61,486 nucleotides of DNA, taken from positions 1 through 61,486 of the IMG/VR virus record IMGVR_UViG_3300032215_000085; one strand, 5' to 3'. Source of the DNA: a virus. How positions within the stretch are numbered: position 1 is the first letter of the stretch; each line of letters opens with the position of its first letter. The notes under the pieces are model-generated. The model was not told the DNA's origin and did not search any database. It saw only the letters and a program-made list of their open reading frames with translations. Positions 31,404 to 59,195 of the stretch are shown piece by piece. Made by a program: the position numbers and the translations under genes.

Positions 31404-34400
31404 ATGGCAAATAGAGTTAGAACACTTGACTTTCTTCCTGAGATTTTTAGAACAGAGACTAATAATCAATTTTTAGGTGCTACCCTAGACCAATTAATTA
31501 CGCTTCCTAAATTAGATAAGATTGAGGGATATATTGGTCGCAAATTTGAGTATGGGTTAACCGCTAGTGACAGTTATATAGTAGAACCAAATAAAGTTAG
31601 ACAACAATACCAATTTGAACCAGGTGTAGTATTTACTAAAACTAATACTAGTACCGCGGTTGACTTTTTAACGTATCCTGGATTAGTGGATGCACTAGCC
31701 GCTGAGAACGGATCGGTAATTAATCATTCTAAATTGTTTGCAAATCAATTCTACTCATGGGATAGTTTTGTTGACTTAGATAAACTTGTTAACTTCAGTC
31801 AATACTATTGGTTGCCTGATGGTCCTGACGTAGTAGATGTAAAAACAAGTTTGTTATATAATAAACTTGATTATGTAGTAACAAATCAATCAATTGACTA
31901 TCAAATTTCCGCAAACGATATTAGCTTGGGTAAGAATCCGATCATATCGCTATTGCGTGGCGGTACGTACACGTTCAATATATCACAACCAAATAAGTTT
32001 TACATTCAAACTAGTCCTGGCACTTCAGGTAAAAACCCATCACGTACTAATTTAAGCAACAGAGAGATTTATGGAGTAGATAACAACGGGATTAATTCTG
32101 GGTTCATGACATTTACTGTTCCTTATGCAACTGACCAAGATAATATTAGATATCCTGGTAATAACCCGGTTGATATTGTAACTACTTTACCGTTTGAAAA
32201 GATACACGGCATGCCTTTAAGTAAGCTTAAAGATATTGATGGTGTTAATTCATTGCGTAATAGAACGTTAATGTTTTATGGATTTAAACCAGGCACAACT
32301 GCTAAACTTACTAACTTCTATGATAATGTAGCATTTGATGAGGTTACTTACGATGGCGGTGATTTAACTGTAATTACAAATAATTTCTACAAAATTAATT
32401 ATGTCAGTGAGGACGGCGGTGACCCGGTAATTATATTAACCGAACACAAAGTTATTCCAACCAATCAAAAAATTACTGCAATCTTTGGTGAGACATTTAT
32501 TAGCAGAGACTTTGTAAAAAATCAATTAGGTGAGATTGTTAAATTAGCTCAGATTACTGCTGACCTAGATACTTTATATTATCAAGATGCAGTTGATCCA
32601 TTAAAGACAGGTCTTATAAAGTTAGTTGAAGATAATGTATCTCATAAAATCAATGTTGAGACAGATATTTTAGGTAAAAAAACATACAAAAGCCCGTTTG
32701 GTGTAGTATTCACGAATGGAATGAAAATTAACTTTGTAGGCTCAATATTACCGGAATCGTACCGAGATAAAAAATATTATGTAGAAGGCGTTGGAACCGG
32801 CATTCAGTTAATTCCGGAGACCGATGTATTAGTTCCAGAAACATTCAGTCAAATTGTCTATAAGTCATATGACAATGAAGGGTTTGATACTTCAACATTC
32901 AGTGAACGATTGAATGTTCCTGTAGTTAAGGATTACATTACTATTAGTAGAAATGCTAGAAATAGAAACGCATGGAGTCGTAGTAATCGCTGGTTTCATA
33001 TTGATGTACTGAAAGCTACCGCTTTATATTCAAGTGGAAAGATATCTAATGCCGCATTGAATAACGCAGACAACCGTGCCAAAAGACCAATCATTGAGTT
33101 TTATCCAAATTTAAAATTGTTTAACAGTGGTACCGTACACAAGACGTTTGTTGATTTTATTGATACTACAACAACAAATGCTAATACCCAAGTATCAGGT
33201 AAAACATCATATATACCTGACGGTAGCTTACCGTTATTTGATGGTGCAACAATCGTCTTTACTGCTGATACTGATATTGAAGTGCGAAACAAGATATTCA
33301 CTGTTAAATTTCAGTCAATTACTGGATTTGGTACACCGGTAATTACATTAACCAATGCAAATAAAGATGTTATTCTTGCAAATGAACAAGTAGTTTCAAA
33401 ACGCGGAACTAACAATGTTGGTAAAACATATTACTTTAGTGGTTCAACTTGGACATATGCACAAGCAAAAACGTTGATAAATCAACCTCCTATATTTGAT
33501 GTATTTGATATTAATGGTATAAGTTTCAATAACCAATCATATTATCAAGGTAGTGACTTTAAAGGAAGCAAGTTATTTTCATATGCTACTGGTACTGGTA
33601 CTGATGATACAGTATTAGGGTTTCCAATAAAATATAGTTCAGTTGCTAATATTGGTGATATTAATTTTAATGTTGATTTTAACAGCGATACATTTAATTT
33701 TATTAAAAACTTTGTTTCTACCACGTATAAAATTACTGATGGATATGTCCATAACTATACATCACGTACAGGATACAGTAGAAAAATAGGTTGGGAAACT
33801 GCGGTTGGAGAAAGTTTTCAGTATCAGGCATTTGAATTTCAATATCAAATTGGTGTTACTACACCATCAATAAAATTCAATATTTTACCTGTTACAGGTA
33901 GTCCGTGGCCAACAGTTAGAGTATTTGCTGATAGCACAGAACTTACTACGTCACAATTTACTGTCACTACCTCTACAAAGTTAAACCAAACAGTTATTAC
34001 ATTGTTATATCCTCCTACAGTTAATACAATGATGCAGGTGTTGATATACAGCAATGATCCACTTGATTCAAAAGCATATTTTACAATACCAAGTAACTTA
34101 TCTAATAACCCATTCAACGTTGATATCCCTGAATTAAGTTTAGGTGATTTACGTGGGCATTATCAAAGCATTTATAAAAATAGCAGAAAAGTTACCGGTG
34201 ATGTATTTGGTGCAAATAACTTCAGAGATGCCGGAAACTTAATTTCATATTCTACTAAAATAATTAGAAACAGTGCCCCAATGGTTAATTTGGCAGCATT
34301 CATGCGTCATAATGAATACAATCTAATAGATTCATTGTCGTTTAACGCACAAGAGTATGTTAAATTTAAACAATTAATGTTGTCAACAGTTGACCAATCA

Positions 34401-37400
34401 GAATATATTCCAACTATGTCTGGCGCACAAATGCTAGATGATGTGTTACAACAGATTGCGTCATACAAACAAGAAAGCGATAGTTTCTTTTGGTCAGATA
34501 TGTTGCCGGCAAGAGCACCGTATATCTCTAAGACCTATACATTTAACGCATTTATTGACACCAGTTTTTTCCCGTTAAGTAAGATATACGATTTTAAAAA
34601 TGCAAACTATAATTCAATTTTAGTTTACAGTAAAAATACAATTAGTGGAATTGATAGATACACTCAACTTATTAAAGATTTAGATTATACAATAAGCAGT
34701 ACACAACCTAAATTACAAATTACTAAAGATTTGGTTGCAGGCGACACTATTATTATAAATGAATTTAATACAACTTATGGTAGTTATGTACCAAGTACTC
34801 CTAGTAAGTTGGGTTTATATCCTGCAAGTCGCCCTAGCATTGTGTTAGACAACAGTTATCTAATCCCTACATATTTTATTAAAGGTCATGACGGATCATT
34901 AACTAAGTTATATGGTGCCTATAATAATGGATACCTAGAAGATTTCAAAGATAAAGTTTTACTAGAGTTTGAAACTCGTATTTACAATAATATCAAAGTA
35001 AGTTCTCCTATACCAATTAATGAAGATGAAATTATTCCGGGATATTTCAGAAGTACTGGTAACTCACTTACAGAAGTTCAAAATATTTATTCTGCTAATT
35101 TTTTGGACTGGGCTGGTAAAAATAATATTGATTTTGCAAATAATTTCTATTCAACAAGCGAAAAATTTACTTGGAATTACAAAGATTCTACCGACAAAAA
35201 CAATAAAGTTATAACTCAGGGTTTTTGGAGAGGTATATATTTGTGGTACTATGATACTACGACCCCTCATTCAACACCATGGGAAATGTTAGGATTATCA
35301 GATAAGCCTTCTTGGTGGGATTCTCGTTATGGTGAAGCACCTTATACAAGTGACAACGCAGTATTGTGGTCAGACATTGAAGCCGGGAGAGTTAACGGTG
35401 CAGTTAATTCACGCAGAACAAGACCGGGATTATCTAAAATATTACCAGTTGATTCATACGGTAATTTAAAGAATCCATTTAACACAATGATTCGTGACTA
35501 TAGTAAGTCAGTGTTTAATACTGCATGGGATGTAGGTGATGTGGGTCCTGCGGAATATAGTTATAGAAGAAGCAGTAACTGGCCATTTGATTTAATGAAG
35601 ATAATTGCATTATTAAAGCCGGCAAAGTTCTTCTCATTGTCACAAGACATAGATTTATATACGTATAGTCCAGAATTTAATCAATTCCTGCTAGATGGAT
35701 TCCTACATGAAAACAAAATTCCATTATTATATGGTAGTGGAACAGCACAGCATAGTTATATGAATTGGATCGTTGATTATGTGCAACGTACGGGTCATGT
35801 AGGATATGATAATGTTACAACATTATTAAACAATTTAGATGTTAGATTAATTTATAGAATTGCTGGATTTACAGATAAAGAATATTTAAATTTTTACCTA
35901 GAAAAAACAAGCACTAACTCAAATAACGTGTCATTGTTGTTACCTAGCGAAAGTTACAATGTAATATTGTATCAAAATCAACCTGAATTTACTATTCGCT
36001 ATAGTAGTATAATTATACAAAGAACACTTAATGGATATTCAGTTACTGGTAATAATCAGACTCGTTCATATTTTATGACGTATACTTCTGATCCAGACGG
36101 TACGTATAAAGAAATTGAAGTTAATGGTATAAAAGTAAATATACCTAATAATTATAATACTAAAATTAAATATGTCCCCTATGGCAACGTGTTTGCTACG
36201 GCACAAGCCTTAGGTGAGTTTATCATTAATTATGGTAGATATTTAACTGACCAAGGAATTCAATTTGATAACCAAGAAAATGGATTTATATTAAATTGGG
36301 ATCAAATGGTTGCTGAGGCACTATATTGGGTAGGAGCTAATTGGGAAGTTGGAAGTTTGATTAGTATTAACCCAATTGCAAATCGTTTAGTAATTGACAA
36401 AGATAGTTTAATTGTTCAACCATTATCTGCACAAGATAAGAATTTTATTCTAAATCAAAATTTATATGCAATTCATACAAGTGATTTGGCAATATTAAGA
36501 GATGATACTAGATTTGAAGTTAGACCGTTAAACGACGGTGATACTATTTCGTATTTTACTGCAAGTTTAAATTCATTAGAACATGGTATTGTATTTGATA
36601 ACGTGTCATTGTTTAACGATACTATATTCAATAAACTTACCGGATTGCGTCAGAATAGATTATTCTTGCGTGGACAAAAAACTGCTGAATGGAATGGTAC
36701 ATTAAATGCTCAAGGATTTATATTAAATCAGGACAATATTGAAAATTGGTCAGCCAATGTAAAATATGTTAAGGGCTCTATTATAACATATCAAAACAAA
36801 TATTGGATGGCAAATAAAACAGTATTGGCATCACTTACATTCAATACAAATGATTGGATTGAAACCGATTACGAAAAAATTCAAAAAGGTCTATTACCTA
36901 ATGCAAGCACACGGGCATCAGAAAGTGCATTGTATTATGATACCAAAACTGCTAATCTAAAGAATGACGGAGACCTGTTAGGGTTCTCGCTGATTGGGTA
37001 TAGACCTAGAGAGTACTTATCTGCTAGTGACCTATCAGATATTTCACAAGTTAACTTATTCAAAAGTTTTATTGGTGAAAAGGGAACTAAGAATGCAGTT
37101 AATATTGCTCAAAACATTACATTAGATGTTGGACAAATAAAGTATGATGTATACGAAAACTGGGCTATTAAAACTGCTGAATACGGCGGAATAACTAACC
37201 ACAATTTTATTGAATTTAAACTCAGTAAAACTCAATTAACTGGTAATCCTAACATTATTGGTATAGTAAATGATACACCTGAACCAGGACTATTACAAAC
37301 TGTTCCTTTGTATGGGTTAACTAACTTTGGATCAGTAATAGCAGATATTAATATTTTACCTAGAAAACCTCTTGATTATTTTGAAAAATTACCAAGTGCA

Positions 37401-40400
37401 GGATATGTTAACTTCAATGACATTAAGATGTATAGTTTCTCATTTGATAGATTGTGTGTAGGTACACTGACTGCAAATGACATATATCAGGGTGATTATA
37501 TCTGGATTGCAGATGACTATGGTAATTGGAAAGTAATTACACCAATTCCAATGGGTACAATTGAAAAACATGTCAATGTCATCAATGTAAATAATAATTT
37601 TAATGGTACTGTTACATTTGAATTTGATTTCCCGCATGGATTGGTTAAAAATGATACATTCATGATTGTTAACTATGATTCTTCTATTGACGGATTTTAT
37701 AGAGTTAATACTGTAGGTGGACTAACAACGGTGACAGTAGATTTATCATTGCCATCGGAGATCACCGTTATTACTAGTTTGGGTATTGCGTCTAAATTTC
37801 AAACACAACGCATAACAACTACAAAAGAATTATCTAACTTATTATTAATGAATGACGGCGCCAGCCAACAGAAAATATGGATTGACACCGATCAAAATGG
37901 TAAGTGGGCAGTATACCAGAAAGATTTAAGTTACAAATATACTAATTTATTGAAGAAATCAGGTACACAGAATTTTGGTAACGCGGTAATATTTGATAAA
38001 GATTTAGGTGTATATGTAGGAGATCCGGGAGCAAAAACAATTTATAGATATGCATATGCTAAAGCAGGAACGTATGGTGTAACTTCACTTAATGCAAACA
38101 CATATGAATATAAAGAATCGGTTTATGTTAATACAACTGGATTTGGAACTGCAATGGCTAAGTCAGATGATATCATTGTAATTACTTCACCTGATGCGGC
38201 AAACAGTTATATCTATATTGGTGTATTACATCCAAGTTCTCATAAATCTTTTGTAGTTCAACAATTAATTACTATTGCTGGTAAGCGTGTTGGTGATGCA
38301 GTAGCGTTATCCGGTGACAAGAAATGGTTATATTTAAATTCATTAGCAGAAGCAAAAGTATATGTATACCGTCTTGATGATAATCCTAATCGCATATCTG
38401 CTGGATTTGTACTTTCATCTCCAATTGACCTTTATGCAACCGGTTTCATTGTTGCCGGAGATCAATCCGATGGATTAGGTCACGGAGACAAGATTTCTTT
38501 TACCAATGCAATTAAAGCAGAAACATATATCATTGAAACCGCTGAATACGATCTTGGTACAAACAAAACTACTTTTTATATTCAAGGTAATTTTAAATCA
38601 CCTGTGGTTAATGGAACTACAGTTTATAAAGTAACATATAATTATTCAAGTGTAACAACATTAGATGTATCAGATGTTATTCCTGCTTGGTCAGGCTCTA
38701 CCTCCTACAGTGTAGGTGCAGTTGTATATTATAGTGGTAACACATACATAGCAGTAGGCGGCAGCACTAACCAAAATCCAAGAACCCAGACAGTATACTG
38801 GAAAGTATCTAACACTGGCTTTGGTACTACACTCTCTACTAACTATGATGGAAGTAAAGTTTTTATCAGTGCTCCTGCATTAGATTTTACACCAACACTA
38901 TTCAATATGGGTGCAGTGTATGTGTATACTAGAATTGTTCAGAACATTACCTATGTAAGAGATTCTTTAGACTGGACAGACTTAACTACTAAGCTAGCAT
39001 GGGCTCCATTTAATGGTATTTCTGTAATCCATAATGGAAATTTACTAGTTCCTAATATAGATTATACTACAACATCTAATTTGGTTACATTCAAATACCC
39101 GTTTAGAGTTGGGGCAGGTGATCTCGTTAATATTAGTTCGGGTGATTTTATCTTTACACAAACATTGACTCCGTATGATTATAGAACAAGTATCAGATCC
39201 GGTATTGCATTTGGAACAGGATTAGACACCAATAGATTTGGTAATGATGTTCTTGTTGGTGCACCGTTTGATATATCACCTGAAAACTATGAAGGTGCAG
39301 TTTATAGATATACACATGAAGGTAAAAAATACGGAACAGTTACTGGAATTAGGCCAGTTACCCTATCGTATGGAGCTGTTATTTTTATTAATGGATTTGC
39401 TGTCCCAATACCAGGCACCGGTGTTACTGATATAGTAAAAGCAATCAATGGCTTAGGACTTTCCCCCGATCAGTCTTTAAACGTGGGTGCCACTGAAATG
39501 CCTGGTGGAATATTACGCCTTTACTTAATTGACAATACTCTTGGTAAATTGAATGACAAATTAACAATTTCCGCATTCTATAAGTCAGTACTTGATGATT
39601 TAGGAATAGCAGAATATACTCAAACACAAACTATTCGTGAAGTACACAGTACAACGCATCCAACTCAATTTGGTTATTCTATAAAGTTCAACGAATATAA
39701 TTCTGTAGCAATTAGTGCGCCCGTAGCTAATAGATTTGCCGCAACAACGTTTGATTTTATTGATGATAGTAAATCAAATAATGATACATATTTTGATAAT
39801 AACTTCACACGATTTGTTGACTCGTTTGCAAACGCCGGTGCAGTATTTGTTTATGACTATATTGCGGAATACAATGAAAGTCTAACTAACTTAGGTAGTT
39901 ACGTGTTTGCACAATCATGCAATGATTTAATTACTAACGTTGGACCTAATGCATTCTATGGAAAGAAACTAGCATTTAGCGAATATAATTTGGTAGTGGG
40001 TATACCTGACAATTTGTCAGGAGATGGATTTAATGGTAGAGTAATTGTATATAGAAATAGTACAAACAAACCAAATTGGAATATCTTTAGAAAGTCAAAC
40101 GTAATAGTTGATATTGATAAATTATCCGGAGTACAAATATACAACAACGATACTAATGAACGTATTCAATCATTGGATTATATTGATCCTTTACAAGGTA
40201 AATTGTTGGGTGTTGTATTAGAAAATTTAGATTATATTGATAGCATTGATCCTGCAGGATATAATACAGATGTTAGAAATCACAACTTAGTTTGGTCTAG
40301 TGAACATGTTGGTAAACTGTGGTTTGACACATCGTCAACACGTTTTGTAAACTATCACCAAGAAGATAATGTGTATAATAGTAAATACTGGGGTACAGTT

Positions 40401-43400
40401 TTCCCTGACAGTACTGTAAGTGTATATACTTGGGTTGAAAGCGATGTCACCCCTGTTAACTATGCAGGAACAGGAAGACCTTATGATTTAGAATCATATA
40501 CAACAACAGTTGAAGTAGACAGTGCCGGATCATTGGTATTGAAATACTATTACTGGGTCAAGAATACTAACGTTATTCAAATTGTTAAAGGTAAAACTTT
40601 ATCCGACACAATCTTGGAGTTGTATATTGCAAATCCAATAACATCAGGTGTACCGTTCTTTGCGGCATATAAACCTAATGTGTTTGGTCTATACAGTGCT
40701 AGTGAATTTATTACAGACGTAACTTCTAGTTTATATATAGGATTTAGTTCTGGTAGTAATGAAACACCTGCATACAATGAATATAAATTAATTCGTGCAG
40801 GTTATGAAGATGACTTCATCTCAGGTATCCCCTCAATGTATACCGAGCATACTGAACCGGAAGCAATGTATGAAAAATTACTAGACAGCCTAGCTGGTAT
40901 GGACAGTCAAGGTCGTGTAGTTCCCGACATTTATTTACCTAAATTGATGCAAACAGGAACAGCGTATAGACCTAGACAAAGTATGTTTAAGAATAGATTG
41001 AAAGCATTGTCTAACTATTTTGGATATGCTAATAATGTATTGAAGCAATACCCTATTGCTGAGTTTAAAACTCCTAGTTTGTTAGGTTCAAGTAATAGCG
41101 CAAGTAGCACAGTAAGAGCACCAACATTCTTTACAATCACCGGTATTGATTTTGATACAACTAAGTACTGGGAATATACGTATTGGTGGGCAGAAGGATA
41201 TAGTGTTAATACTAAGATTGATGTTGAAGTTTCTAAATATTATGGTCTTGCCACACTAATTCCAAATACAGGTACGATTGCCGGCGTCACTGCAAATAGT
41301 GAAGGTAAGCGTGAAGTATATGTTTACAACGGAAAATCTTGGGATAGAATTGGATTAGAACAAGGAACAATTCAAATTAAAGAATCACTGTGGAATTATT
41401 CTGGAAACAAAATTGGTTTTGACAGTAATTTCTTTGACTTAGATGCATATGATTCATATCCTTCAATGGAAACTCGTTATATTATTCGTGCATTAAATGA
41501 ACAGATTTACACAGAAACATTGCGTATTCACCGTAATAAAAGTTTAATATTGTTATTTGAATATATTGTAAGTGAGAATACAACCTCGCAAAATAATTTG
41601 ACTTGGTTGAATAAAACATCACTAGTAGATGTACAACATACCTTGCGTGAATTGGCTCAGGACAAAAATTATAAGCGTGATAATCAAGTGTTCTTAGAAG
41701 GCTTTATTAATGAAGTTAAACCTTATCGTGTAGTAATTAAAGAATTCTTATTGAAATATACTAAATCAGAATCTTACACAGGACAAGTCACTGACTTTGA
41801 TTTACCAGGTAGATATAACCCTACTATTGATAGATTTATAACACCTAATTTAGTTTTTGACTCAGTAAAAGCTACTGGGCAAGTACTACCTACTAACACT
41901 ATTTGGACTGATAGTTTATACTCTGATTGGTATAATAATTATGGTATATCATTAACAGGAAAAGCTAATACACCTATTACATCTTTGGCAGTATATTTAG
42001 ATACTATTAGTGCTGTCTTGTATGTTAATGATGCATTTGGACTACCAATAACAGGTAGAATTAAAATTGATGATGAGTATATTGATTATTCTCAGATTAA
42101 CAGGGAAAAAGGTAAATTATATAGTCTAACCCGCGGCGCCGGCAATAGCGATATTGCAGAGCATATTCCGGGAACAACCGTATATATTGATTTACCTGGA
42201 GTAGTGTTATTAGATTCCGGTAGAGACTATATTGACCCTCCTCAAATCAGTGCAGTAGTTGACACAACAATTTATCCAGCACCAACTAGACCTGCTACTC
42301 TTGTACCAATTATGTCAAGTGGTAAAGTAATTGATATTGTTGTAACTGATCCGGGATTAGGGTATACAACTAAACCGGATATTGTAATTCAAGCATCTGT
42401 CACTGTATTATTTGATAGTGCAGATATTAACTATGTAGATAATACTATTAACATTAACGCAGTTTCATTAATAACAGGAGACGCAATAAAATATACTAAA
42501 GGATTAACAAGTCTTGGAATCTCTGGATTACAAAACAAAAAATATTACTATGTGCGTGTGATTAGTAGCGATAACTTGTTTCATAAAAAATCAGTTATAG
42601 CATTGTACACTACCAAAAATAATGCAATGATAGATTCACATCGAGTGAATTTAGCTGAAAGTGTAAACAGTATTAATAACAGATTGGAAGTTTCTGCAAG
42701 GGCAGTACCTATAATATCTAACACACCAACCAGAGAATTAACTTCTACATTAAAATTTGATAGAACAAGTTATAGAACCAAAGTTGAAGATTGGATTTCT
42801 GGTGAATATTATGGTAGTTTAGTAACAAATAATGGTACAGAAAGTAGTTTAGACTTACCGGTAAACTACGCCATACCTTATCCAGGAGTTACTGGTGTGG
42901 CAACTCATCCAGGTAGACTAACAGACGGTGCAGGCGCAATATTTAATATATATAATATTTTATTTGGTCTAATCTATGATGCTGAAATTACTTTTGAAGG
43001 AACATCGTATGATGTTGGAGATATTGTTACTATTGCAGGTGCTAATTTAGGCGGAACAACACCCACAAATAACTGTCGGTTAACAGTTACTGCAATTAGT
43101 AACGTTGGGGGAATCACTGCTGTAACAGTAGCAGGCACTCCCTCAACAGTAACACGTGCTAGTATTCAGCAAGCAATATTACCAATAACATCAGTTGGCT
43201 CTGTAAATGCAACAATTGCGTCTACTACTGCCGGTAGTATATTTGGTAACCAGTTTGTAGCCTCTGGTACAATACAAGGGCTGTTTATTCCAGGCATGAT
43301 TTTAAGCGGCGGAACTATCCCTGCATACTCAGTGTATATTACTGAAGTTGTAACTGCTAAATTTACTGCTGAAATATTTGGAACTAGTACTGTTAAAATA

Positions 43401-46400
43401 CTTACTGGAAATACGCCAAAGTTTGGTATGTTAGTTACCGGTTACTCAATACCAGCAAATACTTTTGTTATTGGGGTGTCTGGTGAGTATGTATCATTGT
43501 CTAATATTGTTAGAAAAACTCCGCAGGTGCAATTTGTAGATTTTACTGGTGTAATTTATAATCTTAATACAAGACTAAATCAGGGTACAACTACTATTAC
43601 TGGTACTTCAGGTGATACGTCAATCGCTTTGAATTATTCAGTCACTAACTTACAGCCAGGACAAATCAAAGGACTACAATTATATTTCTACAAAATAATT
43701 AATCCATATACATATGTTGACCCAAGATCAGGTGGTGCAACTATCAAAGTATTCAAGCCAAACTTTGCAGTACAAAGCATAACAGATGAATATTTTATTC
43801 AAATTATTGATCCTGGTACTATTTACACGGGCGGAGACACTATTGTAATTAAAGGTAGTAATTTGGGAGGTGTTGACGGTGTTAATGATGCTAAGATAAC
43901 AGTAAATATGGCTGATAGTCATGGTGGAATAAACGTATATGAATTGCACGGGGTAGCAGTACATGTGTTTGCACAATATTATGTTAAACCAATAAGTCAA
44001 ACACAAGTGGCATTATTCTACGATGCCGCACTGTTGAGACCTGTACCAAATAATGCCTTTACATTCCATAGTGGTGATTACGCATATATCCCAGAACCAA
44101 TCTATATTACATCTGGGCACACTCGTAGTCCTTATAGTTTAGTAAACTATAATAACACTTTGTATCGTTGTATTACAAGTAATCACGACATTACATTTGA
44201 TTTTAACAAATGGGAAGAAGTACGCAGTGATGAATTTGATTTGAATGCATTAGATAGAATCATGGGGTTCTATAACCCAACAGATAATATGCCAGGTAAA
44301 AATTTACCAATGTTAGTTTCTGGTATTGATTATCCAAACAATACTTATTTTGGTCAATCTTTTAATGATTTAGTAAATGAACTAGACACTATATTAAAGG
44401 ATCAAATATTCTACCCTAGCAATATTAATTTATACGGTATTATAGTAACTGACCAGAATGTTTTGGTTGCAATCGGTGATACCGAATCGTATTCTATTAT
44501 AATGTTGAGTTACGACACCGGAGTTACTTGGACTATTAAACAAATCAGTAAAAACGTATTAAATGTACAAGATATTATATATGACGAAGGACATTATGTT
44601 ATCGTAACAGGCAACATACATTCACCAATACTTACTAGTAACGATTTAGAACATTGGGTATCAGTGGGTGATTTTACACCATATGATACTACTAAGTTTG
44701 ATGATACAGGATACGATAGTTCCTCAATCTCTGCACCAAAAGACAAACTGCATAGTGTAATTTATAATAACAATTTCTATATTGCTGTAGGTGATGAGTT
44801 ATTGGTTAGTACAGATAGTTATACTTGGAACGTTCAATATAGCTTTCAAAGTCAATTGCCTCAACAATTTAACCGTGTAGCATATGTATCATCTGCGTTC
44901 TTTGATGGTTATATTGCTACTGGTCTTGGTACAATTACAAATACTACTGTTAATGGTTATACATCATTAGTTTCTACTTCTAAAACCTTCAGAAGTTTGA
45001 ATGGTTTGGATTGGCAAGAAATACTACCAAGAGTAGTAACAACTGGATTGAATGTAATATTGTCATCAGGAACTATAATAATTTTAGCTGGTGATAATTA
45101 TAAGGTATTTACATCAACTAACTCACATGCATGGGATCCGGCAGCAATTAATGGAGCCGCAAAAACATCAAACTTGTTGAACGGATTATATGCTAATGGA
45201 ATGTTTATTATTGTAGGTGATGATGGTACCATTATAACTAGTTCAGATGGAATTAACTGGAGTGAGGTAGAATCTAATACTACTAAATCATTGTTTGCAG
45301 TCACATACACCAATAATCATTGGATTATTGTTGGTGCTGATGCTACTATTTTACGTAGTAATGATGCTGTTATTTGGGAAAATGTATCATTGATTAAGAC
45401 AGAAGAAAACTTCTATCAAATCAAAGGTGATCCGTTTATATCTGGTTATGGTCCAGAAGAATTAGTGCCAAGCGTATTGACAGATACATTGACTATGACA
45501 GTAACTACACGTCCAGGAAGTACGTGGGCAGTTGAAGATTACCCATTCAATGGATTTACAGTTAAAACATTTACAAATGCACTTACTAGTTTACCAATTG
45601 ATTTTTCAATGGTTACTGAAAATCCCGCACAACTTGCAGTGTACTTAATGGACTCTTCTACCAATTTAGGACTTAGAATCTATGAAGATATTACACCTAC
45701 ATCAACTAATAGCTATTCATATTCTATTGATTGGATTAAACAATCAATCACACTAAGTACATTGGATAGTATAAGTTTATACGATGATACTAAACATTTG
45801 CAAATTGAAGTCTATGAATTTGGTAATGGTAATCAAGAAACAAGAAGCAATTCACAGAATATGCCATTACGTATTGACTCGGTGACTGGTCATAGCGAAA
45901 TATGGTTAGGTTTTGCATATGCACCAACTGTGTACGCTACACCGATTGTCTACCTAAACGGTAAGCCTTTAATATACTTAGATGACTATGTAATTTCTAC
46001 TACTGCATCTAAGCAAGCTAAATTGTTGTTCAATACAACATATCATCCTGAAAATGATTATTTAAGTTTTGTAATAATGGGTACACCAGTAAACTTTAAA
46101 CAAAATAGTTTTAGTGTACCGCAAACACAAATATTTGAAGTTGCACCTTCTATAACTAGTTTGACGTTAGATAATTTTGTTGGTTTACCCTCAGGCGGAT
46201 ATACAAATGATGTGGATGCTATCGTAGAATATAACGGTTCACGTTTAATTTCTACTGTAGACTATACTATCGCAGTTGATACTGGTACAGAAATTGGTAC
46301 AGTGACATTGTTGTTCAATCCAGCATCTGATGAAGATTTAATTAGTGTCACTACATTCCATGACACACATGACCAATACTTGTTAACAGAAAATATTAAC

Positions 46401-47525
46401 ACACTACAAATAACTCCATTAGTATATGTCAATACTGATAAGGGTGATTTGACATTGATTGTTACTTCAACCCCTGAGTTTATTACCGGTGACTTGATAA
46501 CAGTTGATGGAATAGTAGGTACTACCCAGTTAAATGGCAACAAATATTATGCTAGATTATTGGATTCGGTAACAGAAGGTTCAATCACATATCAACCAAT
46601 TAAATTATTTTATGATTCTTTATTAGCAAAACCAGTAACTGGAAAAGTATTAACAAAGTATGTTTCTGGCGGATACGTTTGGAAATCTTCTAATACATAC
46701 GTAATAAATCAACCTAGTTTAACGTTAACTAATATCAATAGATTATTTGTAACGGTTAATGGATACAGAGTTGATAATAGTAGATTAAAATTAAAGAGCG
46801 GAAACAAACTTAACATATTGGAAGCAATCAATATTGGTGACAAAGTTGTAATCACTAGCATGATTTCTAACCCTACACCAAATCAAATGGTATATGTAAA
46901 TCATATTGATAAAAACGGTGAACAGTTAATATACCGTGCTAATTCGGGTGTAAGAACTTGGTTAGCAAAAGATTTAGAAGTACTAGATAGCCAAATATAT
47001 GTTGATAATGTTGCTAAGTTATTAGATTTAGTTAAGGAAAAAGTAGTTGCAGTTGTTGTAAATGATACTGTTGCATGTTTTGTTAACTATGCAGTTGAGA
47101 CTATTAAAGAAATTTCTGTATATAATATCTCTACACTAACTCAAATTAGTCCTGAAAATATTACTTTGTCTATTAGAAATTCTAGACCAGTAATCTATAT
47201 AGCTAAGGGGGCTTCTGAATCTGATAATTTAGAAGTTTCTTTGCGCTTAGGTAATACTATTAATATTGATGGGGAAATTATTACTTTTAAGAAGGTTAAT
47301 ACTAAAACTAACATCATCTCAGGAATTACCCGAGGAGTTAATGGATCTGGTGCTAGAAAAATGCACACTGAATATACTATGGTTTATGGAGTTAAGTTGA
47401 CTAACACATTGTTCAATTACTACTACAACCGTACTTGGAACAGTGAGGAATACTCAGCAGAGGGTGATCCATTACAAATTAGTGACAGCTTCCCGGCTAA
47501 CTTCTTACAGGTCGGTACAGAATAA
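31404..47525 (+). CDS. Giant baseplate protein in the gp7 position, 5,373 aa
   Basis: A single open frame of 16 kb after gp6. The N-terminus (VRTLDFLPEIFRTETNNQFL, then YIVEPNKVRQQYQFEPGVVF) is typical of large gp7-position proteins in T4-like environmental phages. Visible modules: CBM5/12-like segments near residues 1775-1810 (ENWSANVKYVKGSIITYQNK) and 2420-2460 (SYSVGAVVYYSGNTYIAVGG); FG-GAP/integrin-like propeller repeats near 2190-2890 (RFGNDVLVGAPFDISPENYE, GAVYRY); a conserved block near 3125-3215; and a BNR/YCF48-like propeller near 4335-4665 (IIVGDDGTIITSSDGINWSE). A motif IDDEYIDY...TRGAGNS recurs near 3555 and 5290. Probably a wedge arm with host-binding modules. T4 gp7 is 1,032 aa. 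Confidence 0.85.
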   Translation: MANRVRTLDFLPEIFRTETNNQFLGATLDQLITLPKLDKIEGYIGRKFEYGLTASDSYIVEPNKVRQQYQFEPGVVFTKTNTSTAVDFLTYPGLVDALAAENGSVINHSKLFANQFYSWDSFVDLDKLVNFSQYYWLPDGPDVVDVKTSLLYNKLDYVVTNQSIDYQISANDISLGKNPIISLLRGGTYTFNISQPNKFYIQTSPGTSGKNPSRTNLSNREIYGVDNNGINSGFMTFTVPYATDQDNIRYPGNNPVDIVTTLPFEKIHGMPLSKLKDIDGVNSLRNRTLMFYGFKPGTTAKLTNFYDNVAFDEVTYDGGDLTVITNNFYKINYVSEDGGDPVIILTEHKVIPTNQKITAIFGETFISRDFVKNQLGEIVKLAQITADLDTLYYQDAVDPLKTGLIKLVEDNVSHKINVETDILGKKTYKSPFGVVFTNGMKINFVGSILPESYRDKKYYVEGVGTGIQLIPETDVLVPETFSQIVYKSYDNEGFDTSTFSERLNVPVVKDYITISRNARNRNAWSRSNRWFHIDVLKATALYSSGKISNAALNNADNRAKRPIIEFYPNLKLFNSGTVHKTFVDFIDTTTTNANTQVSGKTSYIPDGSLPLFDGATIVFTADTDIEVRNKIFTVKFQSITGFGTPVITLTNANKDVILANEQVVSKRGTNNVGKTYYFSGSTWTYAQAKTLINQPPIFDVFDINGISFNNQSYYQGSDFKGSKLFSYATGTGTDDTVLGFPIKYSSVANIGDINFNVDFNSDTFNFIKNFVSTTYKITDGYVHNYTSRTGYSRKIGWETAVGESFQYQAFEFQYQIGVTTPSIKFNILPVTGSPWPTVRVFADSTELTTSQFTVTTSTKLNQTVITLLYPPTVNTMMQVLIYSNDPLDSKAYFTIPSNLSNNPFNVDIPELSLGDLRGHYQSIYKNSRKVTGDVFGANNFRDAGNLISYSTKIIRNSAPMVNLAAFMRHNEYNLIDSLSFNAQEYVKFKQLMLSTVDQSEYIPTMSGAQMLDDVLQQIASYKQESDSFFWSDMLPARAPYISKTYTFNAFIDTSFFPLSKIYDFKNANYNSILVYSKNTISGIDRYTQLIKDLDYTISSTQPKLQITKDLVAGDTIIINEFNTTYGSYVPSTPSKLGLYPASRPSIVLDNSYLIPTYFIKGHDGSLTKLYGAYNNGYLEDFKDKVLLEFETRIYNNIKVSSPIPINEDEIIPGYFRSTGNSLTEVQNIYSANFLDWAGKNNIDFANNFYSTSEKFTWNYKDSTDKNNKVITQGFWRGIYLWYYDTTTPHSTPWEMLGLSDKPSWWDSRYGEAPYTSDNAVLWSDIEAGRVNGAVNSRRTRPGLSKILPVDSYGNLKNPFNTMIRDYSKSVFNTAWDVGDVGPAEYSYRRSSNWPFDLMKIIALLKPAKFFSLSQDIDLYTYSPEFNQFLLDGFLHENKIPLLYGSGTAQHSYMNWIVDYVQRTGHVGYDNVTTLLNNLDVRLIYRIAGFTDKEYLNFYLEKTSTNSNNVSLLLPSESYNVILYQNQPEFTIRYSSIIIQRTLNGYSVTGNNQTRSYFMTYTSDPDGTYKEIEVNGIKVNIPNNYNTKIKYVPYGNVFATAQALGEFIINYGRYLTDQGIQFDNQENGFILNWDQMVAEALYWVGANWEVGSLISINPIANRLVIDKDSLIVQPLSAQDKNFILNQNLYAIHTSDLAILRDDTRFEVRPLNDGDTISYFTASLNSLEHGIVFDNVSLFNDTIFNKLTGLRQNRLFLRGQKTAEWNGTLNAQGFILNQDNIENWSANVKYVKGSIITYQNKYWMANKTVLASLTFNTNDWIETDYEKIQKGLLPNASTRASESALYYDTKTANLKNDGDLLGFSLIGYRPREYLSASDLSDISQVNLFKSFIGEKGTKNAVNIAQNITLDVGQIKYDVYENWAIKTAEYGGITNHNFIEFKLSKTQLTGNPNIIGIVNDTPEPGLLQTVPLYGLTNFGSVIADINILPRKPLDYFEKLPSAGYVNFNDIKMYSFSFDRLCVGTLTANDIYQGDYIWIADDYGNWKVITPIPMGTIEKHVNVINVNNNFNGTVTFEFDFPHGLVKNDTFMIVNYDSSIDGFYRVNTVGGLTTVTVDLSLPSEITVITSLGIASKFQTQRITTTKELSNLLLMNDGASQQKIWIDTDQNGKWAVYQKDLSYKYTNLLKKSGTQNFGNAVIFDKDLGVYVGDPGAKTIYRYAYAKAGTYGVTSLNANTYEYKESVYVNTTGFGTAMAKSDDIIVITSPDAANSYIYIGVLHPSSHKSFVVQQLITIAGKRVGDAVALSGDKKWLYLNSLAEAKVYVYRLDDNPNRISAGFVLSSPIDLYATGFIVAGDQSDGLGHGDKISFTNAIKAETYIIETAEYDLGTNKTTFYIQGNFKSPVVNGTTVYKVTYNYSSVTTLDVSDVIPAWSGSTSYSVGAVVYYSGNTYIAVGGSTNQNPRTQTVYWKVSNTGFGTTLSTNYDGSKVFISAPALDFTPTLFNMGAVYVYTRIVQNITYVRDSLDWTDLTTKLAWAPFNGISVIHNGNLLVPNIDYTTTSNLVTFKYPFRVGAGDLVNISSGDFIFTQTLTPYDYRTSIRSGIAFGTGLDTNRFGNDVLVGAPFDISPENYEGAVYRYTHEGKKYGTVTGIRPVTLSYGAVIFINGFAVPIPGTGVTDIVKAINGLGLSPDQSLNVGATEMPGGILRLYLIDNTLGKLNDKLTISAFYKSVLDDLGIAEYTQTQTIREVHSTTHPTQFGYSIKFNEYNSVAISAPVANRFAATTFDFIDDSKSNNDTYFDNNFTRFVDSFANAGAVFVYDYIAEYNESLTNLGSYVFAQSCNDLITNVGPNAFYGKKLAFSEYNLVVGIPDNLSGDGFNGRVIVYRNSTNKPNWNIFRKSNVIVDIDKLSGVQIYNNDTNERIQSLDYIDPLQGKLLGVVLENLDYIDSIDPAGYNTDVRNHNLVWSSEHVGKLWFDTSSTRFVNYHQEDNVYNSKYWGTVFPDSTVSVYTWVESDVTPVNYAGTGRPYDLESYTTTVEVDSAGSLVLKYYYWVKNTNVIQIVKGKTLSDTILELYIANPITSGVPFFAAYKPNVFGLYSASEFITDVTSSLYIGFSSGSNETPAYNEYKLIRAGYEDDFISGIPSMYTEHTEPEAMYEKLLDSLAGMDSQGRVVPDIYLPKLMQTGTAYRPRQSMFKNRLKALSNYFGYANNVLKQYPIAEFKTPSLLGSSNSASSTVRAPTFFTITGIDFDTTKYWEYTYWWAEGYSVNTKIDVEVSKYYGLATLIPNTGTIAGVTANSEGKREVYVYNGKSWDRIGLEQGTIQIKESLWNYSGNKIGFDSNFFDLDAYDSYPSMETRYIIRALNEQIYTETLRIHRNKSLILLFEYIVSENTTSQNNLTWLNKTSLVDVQHTLRELAQDKNYKRDNQVFLEGFINEVKPYRVVIKEFLLKYTKSESYTGQVTDFDLPGRYNPTIDRFITPNLVFDSVKATGQVLPTNTIWTDSLYSDWYNNYGISLTGKANTPITSLAVYLDTISAVLYVNDAFGLPITGRIKIDDEYIDYSQINREKGKLYSLTRGAGNSDIAEHIPGTTVYIDLPGVVLLDSGRDYIDPPQISAVVDTTIYPAPTRPATLVPIMSSGKVIDIVVTDPGLGYTTKPDIVIQASVTVLFDSADINYVDNTININAVSLITGDAIKYTKGLTSLGISGLQNKKYYYVRVISSDNLFHKKSVIALYTTKNNAMIDSHRVNLAESVNSINNRLEVSARAVPIISNTPTRELTSTLKFDRTSYRTKVEDWISGEYYGSLVTNNGTESSLDLPVNYAIPYPGVTGVATHPGRLTDGAGAIFNIYNILFGLIYDAEITFEGTSYDVGDIVTIAGANLGGTTPTNNCRLTVTAISNVGGITAVTVAGTPSTVTRASIQQAILPITSVGSVNATIASTTAGSIFGNQFVASGTIQGLFIPGMILSGGTIPAYSVYITEVVTAKFTAEIFGTSTVKILTGNTPKFGMLVTGYSIPANTFVIGVSGEYVSLSNIVRKTPQVQFVDFTGVIYNLNTRLNQGTTTITGTSGDTSIALNYSVTNLQPGQIKGLQLYFYKIINPYTYVDPRSGGATIKVFKPNFAVQSITDEYFIQIIDPGTIYTGGDTIVIKGSNLGGVDGVNDAKITVNMADSHGGINVYELHGVAVHVFAQYYVKPISQTQVALFYDAALLRPVPNNAFTFHSGDYAYIPEPIYITSGHTRSPYSLVNYNNTLYRCITSNHDITFDFNKWEEVRSDEFDLNALDRIMGFYNPTDNMPGKNLPMLVSGIDYPNNTYFGQSFNDLVNELDTILKDQIFYPSNINLYGIIVTDQNVLVAIGDTESYSIIMLSYDTGVTWTIKQISKNVLNVQDIIYDEGHYVIVTGNIHSPILTSNDLEHWVSVGDFTPYDTTKFDDTGYDSSSISAPKDKLHSVIYNNNFYIAVGDELLVSTDSYTWNVQYSFQSQLPQQFNRVAYVSSAFFDGYIATGLGTITNTTVNGYTSLVSTSKTFRSLNGLDWQEILPRVVTTGLNVILSSGTIIILAGDNYKVFTSTNSHAWDPAAINGAAKTSNLLNGLYANGMFIIVGDDGTIITSSDGINWSEVESNTTKSLFAVTYTNNHWIIVGADATILRSNDAVIWENVSLIKTEENFYQIKGDPFISGYGPEELVPSVLTDTLTMTVTTRPGSTWAVEDYPFNGFTVKTFTNALTSLPIDFSMVTENPAQLAVYLMDSSTNLGLRIYEDITPTSTNSYSYSIDWIKQSITLSTLDSISLYDDTKHLQIEVYEFGNGNQETRSNSQNMPLRIDSVTGHSEIWLGFAYAPTVYATPIVYLNGKPLIYLDDYVISTTASKQAKLLFNTTYHPENDYLSFVIMGTPVNFKQNSFSVPQTQIFEVAPSITSLTLDNFVGLPSGGYTNDVDAIVEYNGSRLISTVDYTIAVDTGTEIGTVTLLFNPASDEDLISVTTFHDTHDQYLLTENINTLQITPLVYVNTDKGDLTLIVTSTPEFITGDLITVDGIVGTTQLNGNKYYARLLDSVTEGSITYQPIKLFYDSLLAKPVTGKVLTKYVSGGYVWKSSNTYVINQPSLTLTNINRLFVTVNGYRVDNSRLKLKSGNKLNILEAINIGDKVVITSMISNPTPNQMVYVNHIDKNGEQLIYRANSGVRTWLAKDLEVLDSQIYVDNVAKLLDLVKEKVVAVVVNDTVACFVNYAVETIKEISVYNISTLTQISPENITLSIRNSRPVIYIAKGASESDNLEVSLRLGNTINIDGEIITFKKVNTKTNIISGITRGVNGSGARKMHTEYTMVYGVKLTNTLFNYYYNRTWNSEEYSAEGDPLQISDSFPANFLQVGTE

Positions 47526-58449: not shown

Positions 58450-58551
58450 ATGTTTGAAAATTGGCATTGGGTTTATATGTGGGGCATATTAGTTGTAGTT
58501 AACTATATGTTCTGGATAGTAAAAAGTCTTTTTGACAACGTGAAAGAGTAA
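58450..58551 (+). CDS. 33-aa single-pass membrane protein
   Basis: MFENWHWVYMWGILVVVNYM followed by FWIVKSLFDNVKE: an aromatic N-terminus, one hydrophobic segment and a charged tail. It starts 6 bp after the secreted-protein stop and ends just before the tmRNA acceptor piece. Too short for family assignment; no clear ribosome site, so moderate confidence only. Confidence 0.5.
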   Translation: MFENWHWVYMWGILVVVNYMFWIVKSLFDNVKE

Positions 58552-58554
58552 GTT

Positions 58555-58618
58555 ATTGCTGTATGAAGCAAAGAGAAATGTGTTCTGGACGGGGGTGCGA
58601 ATCCCCCCAGGTCCACCA
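58555..58618 (+). ncRNA. ssrA: tmRNA acceptor piece (3' half of a permuted ssrA)
   Basis: The piece ends in an encoded CCA at 58616-58618. T-arm: GGGGG (58591-58595), loop TGCGAAT, CCCCC (58603-58607), preceded by TTCTGGAC as in other tmRNAs. CAGGTCC (58608-58614) pairs over all 7 positions with GGGCCTG at 58995-59001, giving an alanine-type G3-U70 wobble. GCTGT (58558-58562) can pair with ACAGC (59036-59040) as part of helix P2. There is no 5' tRNA half upstream, so this is not an ordinary tRNA. The 5' boundary is approximate. Confidence 0.9.
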
Positions 58619-58629
58619 TAAGGAAGTTT

Positions 58630-58818
58630 GTGAAAAGTAAAAGTAAGTTCAGTCGTTATAATCTTAAAGGCAACATTATGTGGTGCCTAAATTTGCGTAA
58701 CGGATGGATAAGAATATACAATCATCATATTCGTTGGAATACAGATTGGACGCCAAATTATACATACTTTTTAGTAGAACAGATAAAAGTTTCTTTAATA
58801 AGGAAGTTTTATGAGTAA
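58630..58818 (+). CDS. Small ORF inside the tmRNA intervening segment (62 aa)
   Basis: GTG start at 58630 preceded by AAGGAAG. Encodes a basic, aromatic-rich protein with LRNGWIRIYNHHIRWNTDW. It lies wholly between the tmRNA acceptor and coding pieces. The same leader (TAAGGAAGTTT) precedes the next ORF, which supports translation. No family recognised. Confidence 0.5.
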   Translation: MKSKSKFSRYNLKGNIMWCLNLRNGWIRIYNHHIRWNTDWTPNYTYFLVEQIKVSLIRKFYE

Positions 58819-58993
58819 AGTTTTAAAAGATATTGACCAGCTAATCCTAGATTATGCAGGTCTTCCCGAATATGTATATTCCACTCGTATTTTGGAGGCT
58901 GCTAAATCGGAAATAATTCGGTTGAAAAATTCTGAATCCGAAGCTGAATATTTTAGAACTTTATGCGAAGGGTACGAAAAAACTTCTTTATGA
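58811..58993 (+). CDS. Small ORF inside the tmRNA intervening segment (60 aa)
   Basis: ATG at 58811 with AAGGAAG in front. Encodes a helical, charged protein, MSKVLKDIDQLILDYAGLPE ... RLKNSESEAEYFRTLCEGYE. It overlaps the previous ORF by 8 bp and its stop codon (58991-58993) ends 1 bp before the mature 5' end of the tmRNA coding piece. Unknown function. Confidence 0.6.
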   Translation: MSKVLKDIDQLILDYAGLPEYVYSTRILEAAKSEIIRLKNSESEAEYFRTLCEGYEKTSL

Positions 58994-58994
58994 T

Positions 58995-59138
58995 GGGCCT
59001 GCATAGTTTCGACAGGGCAACTAGTAACAGAGTGGACAGCACGGTAGGCGATGACCGTTAATCAAGCAAAAAAAGTAACCGCAAACGACTCACAGTTCGC
59101 ATTAGCAGCCTAAACACTGCTTAGGGTAAGACATACCT
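58995..59138 (+). ncRNA. ssrA: tmRNA coding piece (5' half with tag reading frame)
   Basis: Begins GGGCCTG (acceptor stem), then the conserved TTTCGACAGGG region and a pseudoknot-like stem ACGGT/ACCGT (59041-59058). After AAAAAAAGTAACC the tag frame reads GCA AAC GAC TCA CAG TTC GCA TTA GCA GCC TAA (59081-59113), encoding ANDSQFALAA, compared with ANDENYALAA in E. coli. CCTAA...TTAGG forms the P5 hairpin around the stop. tmRNA with SmpB rescues stalled ribosomes and tags nascent chains for proteolysis. The piece order identifies a circularly permuted two-piece gene. The 3' boundary is approximate. Confidence 0.93.
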
Positions 59139-59154
59139 CGTAACAGAAAATCAG

Positions 59155-59177
59155 AAAAGGCTCTTTGGAGCCTTTTT
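59155..59177 (+). terminator. Terminator of the tmRNA transcript
   Basis: AAAAGGCTC (59155-59163), loop TTTG, GAGCCTTTT (59168-59176), then T. The same stem sequence as the terminator at 2111-2132. Confidence 0.9.
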
Positions 59178-59195
59178 CTTTGGCATAATTTTTCT

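Follow-up and report, generated by a model that had tools for sequence, protein, structure and literature searches.

The window, a stretch of 61,486 nt of viral DNA, carries the gene for a permuted, phage-encoded tmRNA, and the spacer (IVS) that would be excised from between the two tmRNA pieces probably also serves as a slot for the expression of small, interchangeable genes, referred to here as cargo. RNA processing, translation of the cargo and tagging are what we infer from the sequence. The contig is a fragment of a T4-like myophage, which has a contractile tail; genes found in the window record include those for the major head protein, the portal, SbcC and SbcD homologues, a late sigma factor and the baseplate wedge and hub, with T4-type matches to phrog_138, 213, 10646, 12791, 77 and 100. 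The same stretch contains one ORF of 5373 aa (31404-47525), which is unusually long for a phage gene.

The original prediction of a permuted two-piece tmRNA was borne out, as all of the elements named in it are present. In the covariance search that had been proposed as a check, positions 58557-59113 scored 109.7 bits (E 1.6e-20) with the Rfam model RF04321 (tmRNA_permuted), for which the cut-off is 47, and a chance match is thereby excluded; the score with RF01850 (beta_tmRNA), a separate model, was 74.4 and thus below the gathering score of 84, which was reached in L283 and L264 (loci of the comparison are cited by L number). ARAGORN called no tmRNA in the window, probably because of the long IVS. 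The T-arm/acceptor half (58591-58618), with the 3' end CAGGTCC-A-CCA, sits upstream of the coding half and pairs with it in a perfect 7-bp acceptor stem (GGGCCTG/CAGGTCC) that includes G3-U70. Paired changes keep this stem in related viruses, where GGGGGTG/CACCTCC, GGGGATG/CATCTCC and GGGGCTG/CAGCTCC were found. The stem with its G3-U70 pair, the tag ANDSQFALAA followed by TAA and the 376-nt spacer were all located where they had been predicted, and the spacer does hold two small ORFs, the second of which has a stop that ends 1 nt before G58995 (Table 1). The suggestion that the phage might alter degradation tags or reprogramme ribosome rescue found no support, as ANDSQFALAA is an ordinary tag of the ...ALAA type and the commonest one of the set (39 loci). 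Release of an mRNA by processing of the window precursor is plausible. Since no smpB gene was found in 16 viral records, the SmpB of the host would have to serve as partner of the tmRNA. The hairpin at the 3' end of the coding piece is a probable terminator on the + strand. When the tmRNA of the window and the cargo proteins were compared by BLAST to a set of 50,697 phage records, no significant match was obtained.

Table 1. Features of the tmRNA locus in the window.
Feature	Position	Strand	Description
Small gene MFENWHWVYMWGILVVVNYMFWIVKSLFDNVKE	58450..58551	+	Immediately 5' of the tmRNA
tmRNA acceptor piece	58557..58618	+	T-arm 58591-58607, CAGGTCC 58608-58614, A, CCA 58616-58618; RF04321 match starts at 58557
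IVS, cargo slot	58619..58994	+	376 nt, from CCA to the mature 5' end
Closing stem, 5' strand TAAGGAAGTTT	58619..58629	+	Holds the ORF1 Shine-Dalgarno AAGGA; paired with a probability of 0.8-1.0 when the precursor is folded
ORF1	58630..58818	+	Cargo gene in the IVS; GTG start, 62 aa
ORF2	58811..58993	+	Cargo gene in the IVS; ATG start, 60 aa; overlaps the ORF1 stop
Closing stem, 3' strand AAACTTCTTTA	58980..58990	+	Encodes the last ORF2 residues (TSL)
TGAT junction motif	58991..58994	+	Before the mature 5' end; TGA is the ORF2 stop
tmRNA coding piece	58995..59179	+	GGGCCTG 58995-59001, GTTTCGAC region, tag region, 3' hairpin; RF04321 and beta_tmRNA matches; 3' end approximate
Tag frame ANDSQFALAA and stop	59081..59113	+	GCA AAC GAC TCA CAG TTC GCA TTA GCA GCC TAA
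Terminal hairpin AAAAGGCTC-TTTG-GAGCCTTTT, then TCTTT	59155..59176	+	Last hairpin of the beta_tmRNA model; the scan reported a hairpin on the opposite strand

A degenerate pattern of the 5' half was found in 120 viral records. Inclusion of the window and of its copy brought this set to 122, and a complementary T-arm/acceptor half was identified upstream in 106 of these. The identical scan of bacterial genomes found a complementary half in 8 of 117 matches, of which one was a real tmRNA and the only real permuted case among the 117; 57 of the bacterial matches were standard genes. Six apparent second 5' halves upstream of viral tmRNAs were rejected as slicing artefacts on short contigs. Two viral scans were added, one requiring AAGG after CCA and the other requiring TTATGAT before the 5' half, and the three scans together yielded 184 distinct IVSs; nearly all loci are on metagenome contigs. 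A cargo ORF was found in 95 of these 184 loci under a looser rule that allowed two ORFs per IVS, a proportion that does not represent a natural frequency as the AAGG and TTATGAT samples are biased toward cargo; the frequency in the unselected sample was about 14-18 of 79.

Under a fixed rule, which called for ATG or GTG 8-26 nt after CCA, a Shine-Dalgarno, a frame open to at most 15 nt from the IVS end and at least 18 codons, cargo ORFs were identified in 12/40, 62/69 and 12/18 of the IVSs of at least 80 nt in the pattern, AAGG and TTATGAT samples, respectively, as compared to dinucleotide shuffle means of 1.0, 2.9 and 0.2 such ORFs. The cargo of the 95 loci falls into at least 49 families without detectable similarity to each other. 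Judged by their substitution patterns, cargo genes are under purifying selection, with dN/dS between 0.07 and 0.55 in those families that allowed its calculation, and a pooled pN/pS of 0.32 over 18 families. Selection, starts and stops tied to the IVS ends, and presence in unrelated tmRNAs all characterize these genes as protein-coding cassettes. Known domains among the 49 families, which include zinc-ribbon-like proteins, are thioredoxin (L312), CxxCxxCC (L012, L041) and PGDYG (L282). Cargo beyond these families comprises a relative of HNH homing endonucleases (L278), an Oxidored-like fragment (the L016 group) and, in L343, a GNAT enzyme. A strongly hydrophobic segment is present in 14 families, most of which encode single-TM peptides. 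The Oxidored-like frame is located in a 115-nt IVS (L016, L022, L085 and L300) with no obvious ATG or GTG after CCA, and is perhaps a captured fragment or a gene with a non-standard start. Among other features, the 104-nt IVS of L018 has a tRNA-like 3' part (GGTTCGAATCCTGG...GGCCACCA), for which ARAGORN made no tRNA call, and the L012 contig carries more than 20 tRNA genes beside its cargo-bearing tmRNA.

Both window ORFs belong to families that also occur outside this locus. ORF1 is found singly in the IVS of L049, L057, L241, L242 and L243, whereas L244-L246 have it as a free-standing gene; dN/dS inside this family is 0.23, and the structure of the protein was predicted with low confidence (pLDDT 68). 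ORF2 is found singly in the IVS of L248/L249, and part of the free-standing genes of L250-L258 is ~50% identical to it. The cargo forms of ORF1 and ORF2 differ from the free-standing forms in their C-termini, at the stem. L049 is from a closely related phage and represents the same region, with 85% identity over 2.8 kb and 98% over the 5' half, and it carries ORF1 alone; with ORF2 alone in L248, the window thus represents a tandem fusion of two cassettes. Furthermore, the family of the small gene immediately upstream of the window tmRNA was found inside the tmRNA IVS in L264, L268, L331, L346, L031 and L356. Defence-system models did not match ORF1, ORF2 or two others.

The two ends of the IVS pair as an 11-bp stem, which covaries in 48 cargo families as well as in 74 non-cargo IVSs. 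With one sequence per family and 12 positions counted, 525 of 576 cells were paired in the cargo families (shuffle maximum 456), and 790 cells were paired in the 74 non-cargo IVSs (shuffle maximum 594); it is from this pairing in IVSs without cargo that the closing stem is seen to belong to the tmRNA. Where cargo is present, this stem has a 5' strand that is almost invariably AAGGA, which is the Shine-Dalgarno, with its first G mostly in a G-U pair, and this Shine-Dalgarno is located no more than about 7 nt from CCA. At the other end, TGAT precedes the mature 5' end in 163 of the 184 IVSs. In folded precursors, the acceptor and closing stems formed with a probability near 1 and the Shine-Dalgarno was almost wholly paired in most of those tested; exceptions were L271 and L283, which are short and have a partly open Shine-Dalgarno, and L012, which has weaker stems. 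Cargo with its Shine-Dalgarno buried in this way could also be translated poorly, which would speak against the slot as a site of expression.

We propose a model in which one transcript would carry both tmRNA halves and the cargo. The acceptor stem and the 11-bp stem of the IVS ends, as seen from the sequence, close this precursor. They would bring the halves together whatever the cargo may be, and RNase P and 3'-end processing would then release a two-piece tmRNA that has the host SmpB as its partner. Cargo could be translated from the precursor or from the freed IVS, and folding of the stem would hide the Shine-Dalgarno and compete with translation. A further and tentative proposal, which we consider possible and rather less than probable, is that the slot is gated by processing, such that the stem that assembles the tmRNA also switches cargo translation. 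The amount of cargo made during infection would then reflect how far the tmRNA has matured or how much capacity for ribosome rescue there is, and the two halves would be the route of cassette exchange.

The IVS could also be a neutral place of insertion, where genes arrive by recombination and are expressed from the tmRNA transcript with no functional tie to its processing. This explanation has close to an even chance of being correct; the functions of the cargo are mutually unrelated, and most cargo genes are uncharacterized small phage genes, some of which also occur outside tmRNAs. It is challenged by the very constant positions of starts and stops relative to the processing sites and by a Shine-Dalgarno that is built into a covarying stem, although both of these may simply be the cheapest way to keep the fold and the gene together. 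A neutral slot would still be a form of the basic finding made here, and its probability is similar to that of any explanation by regulation.

The positions of the stops bear on a more specific possibility. The cargo stop is usually found at the RNase P site or 12-13 nt before it. In 27 of the 49 families the stop is supplied by TGAT, just before the cleavage site, and, since translation runs through the 3' strand of the stem, 14 of these 27 families have the C-terminal residues SL (VSL in 11 of the 14). Another 11 families stop upstream of the stem's end and 10 stop only within the mature tmRNA, so that the processed mRNA of the latter would be without a stop codon. Such read-through, together with the precedent of bacterial arfA, a stop-less mRNA that is repressed by trans-translation (as described in the available portion of PMC10107115), could suggest a coupling by design, in which cargo from an mRNA left stop-less by the RNase P cut is itself tagged, so that its production would be confined to times of low rescue capacity or low tmRNA maturation. 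Considering that stops lie before the cleavage site in the 27 families and upstream of the stem in the 11, this coupling cannot be general, and as an account of the slot it is unlikely.

The slot reading also accounts for cargo as something exchanged between tmRNAs. Cargo with 97-100% nucleotide identity was found in tmRNAs with halves that are 60-85% identical and upstream flanks at chance level, as in L049/L241, L041/L393, L105/L374 and many similar pairs; in L049/L241, identities are 0.99 for the cargo, 0.72 for the T-half, 0.61 for the 5' half and 0.53 upstream. Here the identical stretch begins at the T-stem/acceptor and ends where the 5' half starts, both close to the IVS edges, and in other exchanged pairs it reaches further into the conserved tmRNA. 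The GNAT-like cargo is represented by 13 intact, near-identical copies, all 13 of which follow a tmRNA-like T-arm and CCA with at least two types of T-loop; 10 of the 13 were confirmed by script in whole permuted tmRNAs and three were assigned by the T-arm alone. These comparisons indicate that cargo moves among tmRNAs in unrelated genome contexts, and swaps would probably proceed by homologous recombination via the conserved tmRNA ends.

A homing-type mobile element that maintains the slot and spreads cargo among tmRNAs would be a different cause of this movement. In L278, a 531-nt IVS encodes the relative of HNH homing endonucleases (phrog_655, E 2.6e-15), a possible driver of movement, and a GIY-YIG-like gene, which scored below the Pfam cut-off, adjoins the tmRNA of L403. 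These nucleases were nevertheless found in single loci while the other cargo has no recognisable nuclease, and the identity of exchanged copies extends into the conserved tmRNA ends, a pattern that ordinary homologous recombination would be expected to leave, which makes homing an improbable explanation. The L403 locus itself (1215-1777 of a GTDB genome contig; also L231) consists of a standard one-piece tmRNA gene and, directly downstream, an IVS of the phage type (88 nt) and a permuted 5' half that is phage-like and has a tag of its own; its IVS is identical to that of the viral contig L005, with the same T-arm/CCA, and the locus resembles either a chimeric intermediate or a phage that has been joined, at the T-arm, to host ssrA. 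Finally, it is very improbable that the permuted tmRNA of the window is an ordinary one for a phage, in which the spacer is long but non-coding and the two ORFs are due to chance, for although phage two-piece tmRNAs are known (PMC9004378, available portion) and many viral IVSs of the set are non-coding hairpins of 50-120 nt, this explanation is refuted by the shuffles, purifying selection and dozens of independent cargo families, as well as by free-standing ORF1 homologues and genes related to ORF2.

The same layout occurs in a phage that is available in culture. This myophage of the OM43 clade, Melnitz, has a permuted tmRNA of the alpha type (113.4 bits) with a 142-nt IVS that has a closing stem and an ORF, MFKWLSKTRLVVITRDYFRERNRKADAKIPKYLSGTRSVYD, that reads into the mature tmRNA and is absent from the GenBank annotation. 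Among Melnitz relatives, this ORF shows a pN/pS of 0.26-0.38 and an in-frame length difference of 24 nt. In a rough test of a marine alpha-type sample, the association of Shine-Dalgarno and ORF was not significant, so that the evidence in this sample is by family and not global. Melnitz thus offers a testable tie between tmRNA processing and protein synthesis. More broadly, a structured RNA with protein genes in a spacer that is otherwise discarded points to a hidden reservoir of small phage proteins, as annotation misses genes inside tmRNAs, and it would explain in simple terms why permuted tmRNAs may have been retained by phages.

The permuted tmRNAs of Alphaproteobacteria and some Betaproteobacteria (RF04321, RF01849, RF01850) share with the phage genes described here the gene order, acceptor stem, tag frame and TGAT, and beta-proteobacterial tmRNAs also have the same closing stem, around an IVS of about 30 nt. 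Among 190 alphaproteobacterial genomes, 174 were above the RF04321 cut-off, and the spans listed were nearly all about 185-265 nt, so these IVSs are short; the four longest cases, when aligned to Rfam, contained repeats, hairpins or an expanded tag region. Of 200 genomes from the order around Accumulibacter, nine were above the cut-off, with spans of 185-246. No cargo was seen in the permuted tmRNAs of these 190 and 200 genomes; the bacterial IVSs examined are short and non-coding, whereas those described here are protein-coding. T4-like phages also have mobile regulatory cassettes, in which small genes are shuffled via short conserved flanks; here, by comparison, the tmRNA halves are on either side of the gene as its flanks. 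The gene cassettes of integrons likewise provide one slot for many unrelated promoterless genes, which is a resemblance only. The available portion of a 2025 tmRNA database paper (PMC11915505) describes IVSs, one with a tRNA-Ala inside, and tmRNAs with a group I intron, where the extra sequence sometimes includes homing-endonuclease genes or a tRNA; it makes no mention of protein genes in an IVS. Unlike the intron-bearing tmRNAs, the genes described here have no intron, their cargo is located in the processed spacer, and it consists of diverse small genes. No report of a coding IVS was found in the literature covered, which did not include subscription papers. The Melnitz paper (PMC9004378) suggested a two-piece form for 53 of 133 unique phage tmRNA structures and, in its available portion, treats the tmRNA and a glutamine riboswitch with no mention of an IVS ORF; as in the window, the two-piece tmRNA of Melnitz is from a T4-like myophage, and Melnitz has an IVS ORF itself. 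While the phage two-piece tmRNA has therefore been published already, the interchangeable gene slot in its spacer seems to be the new part.
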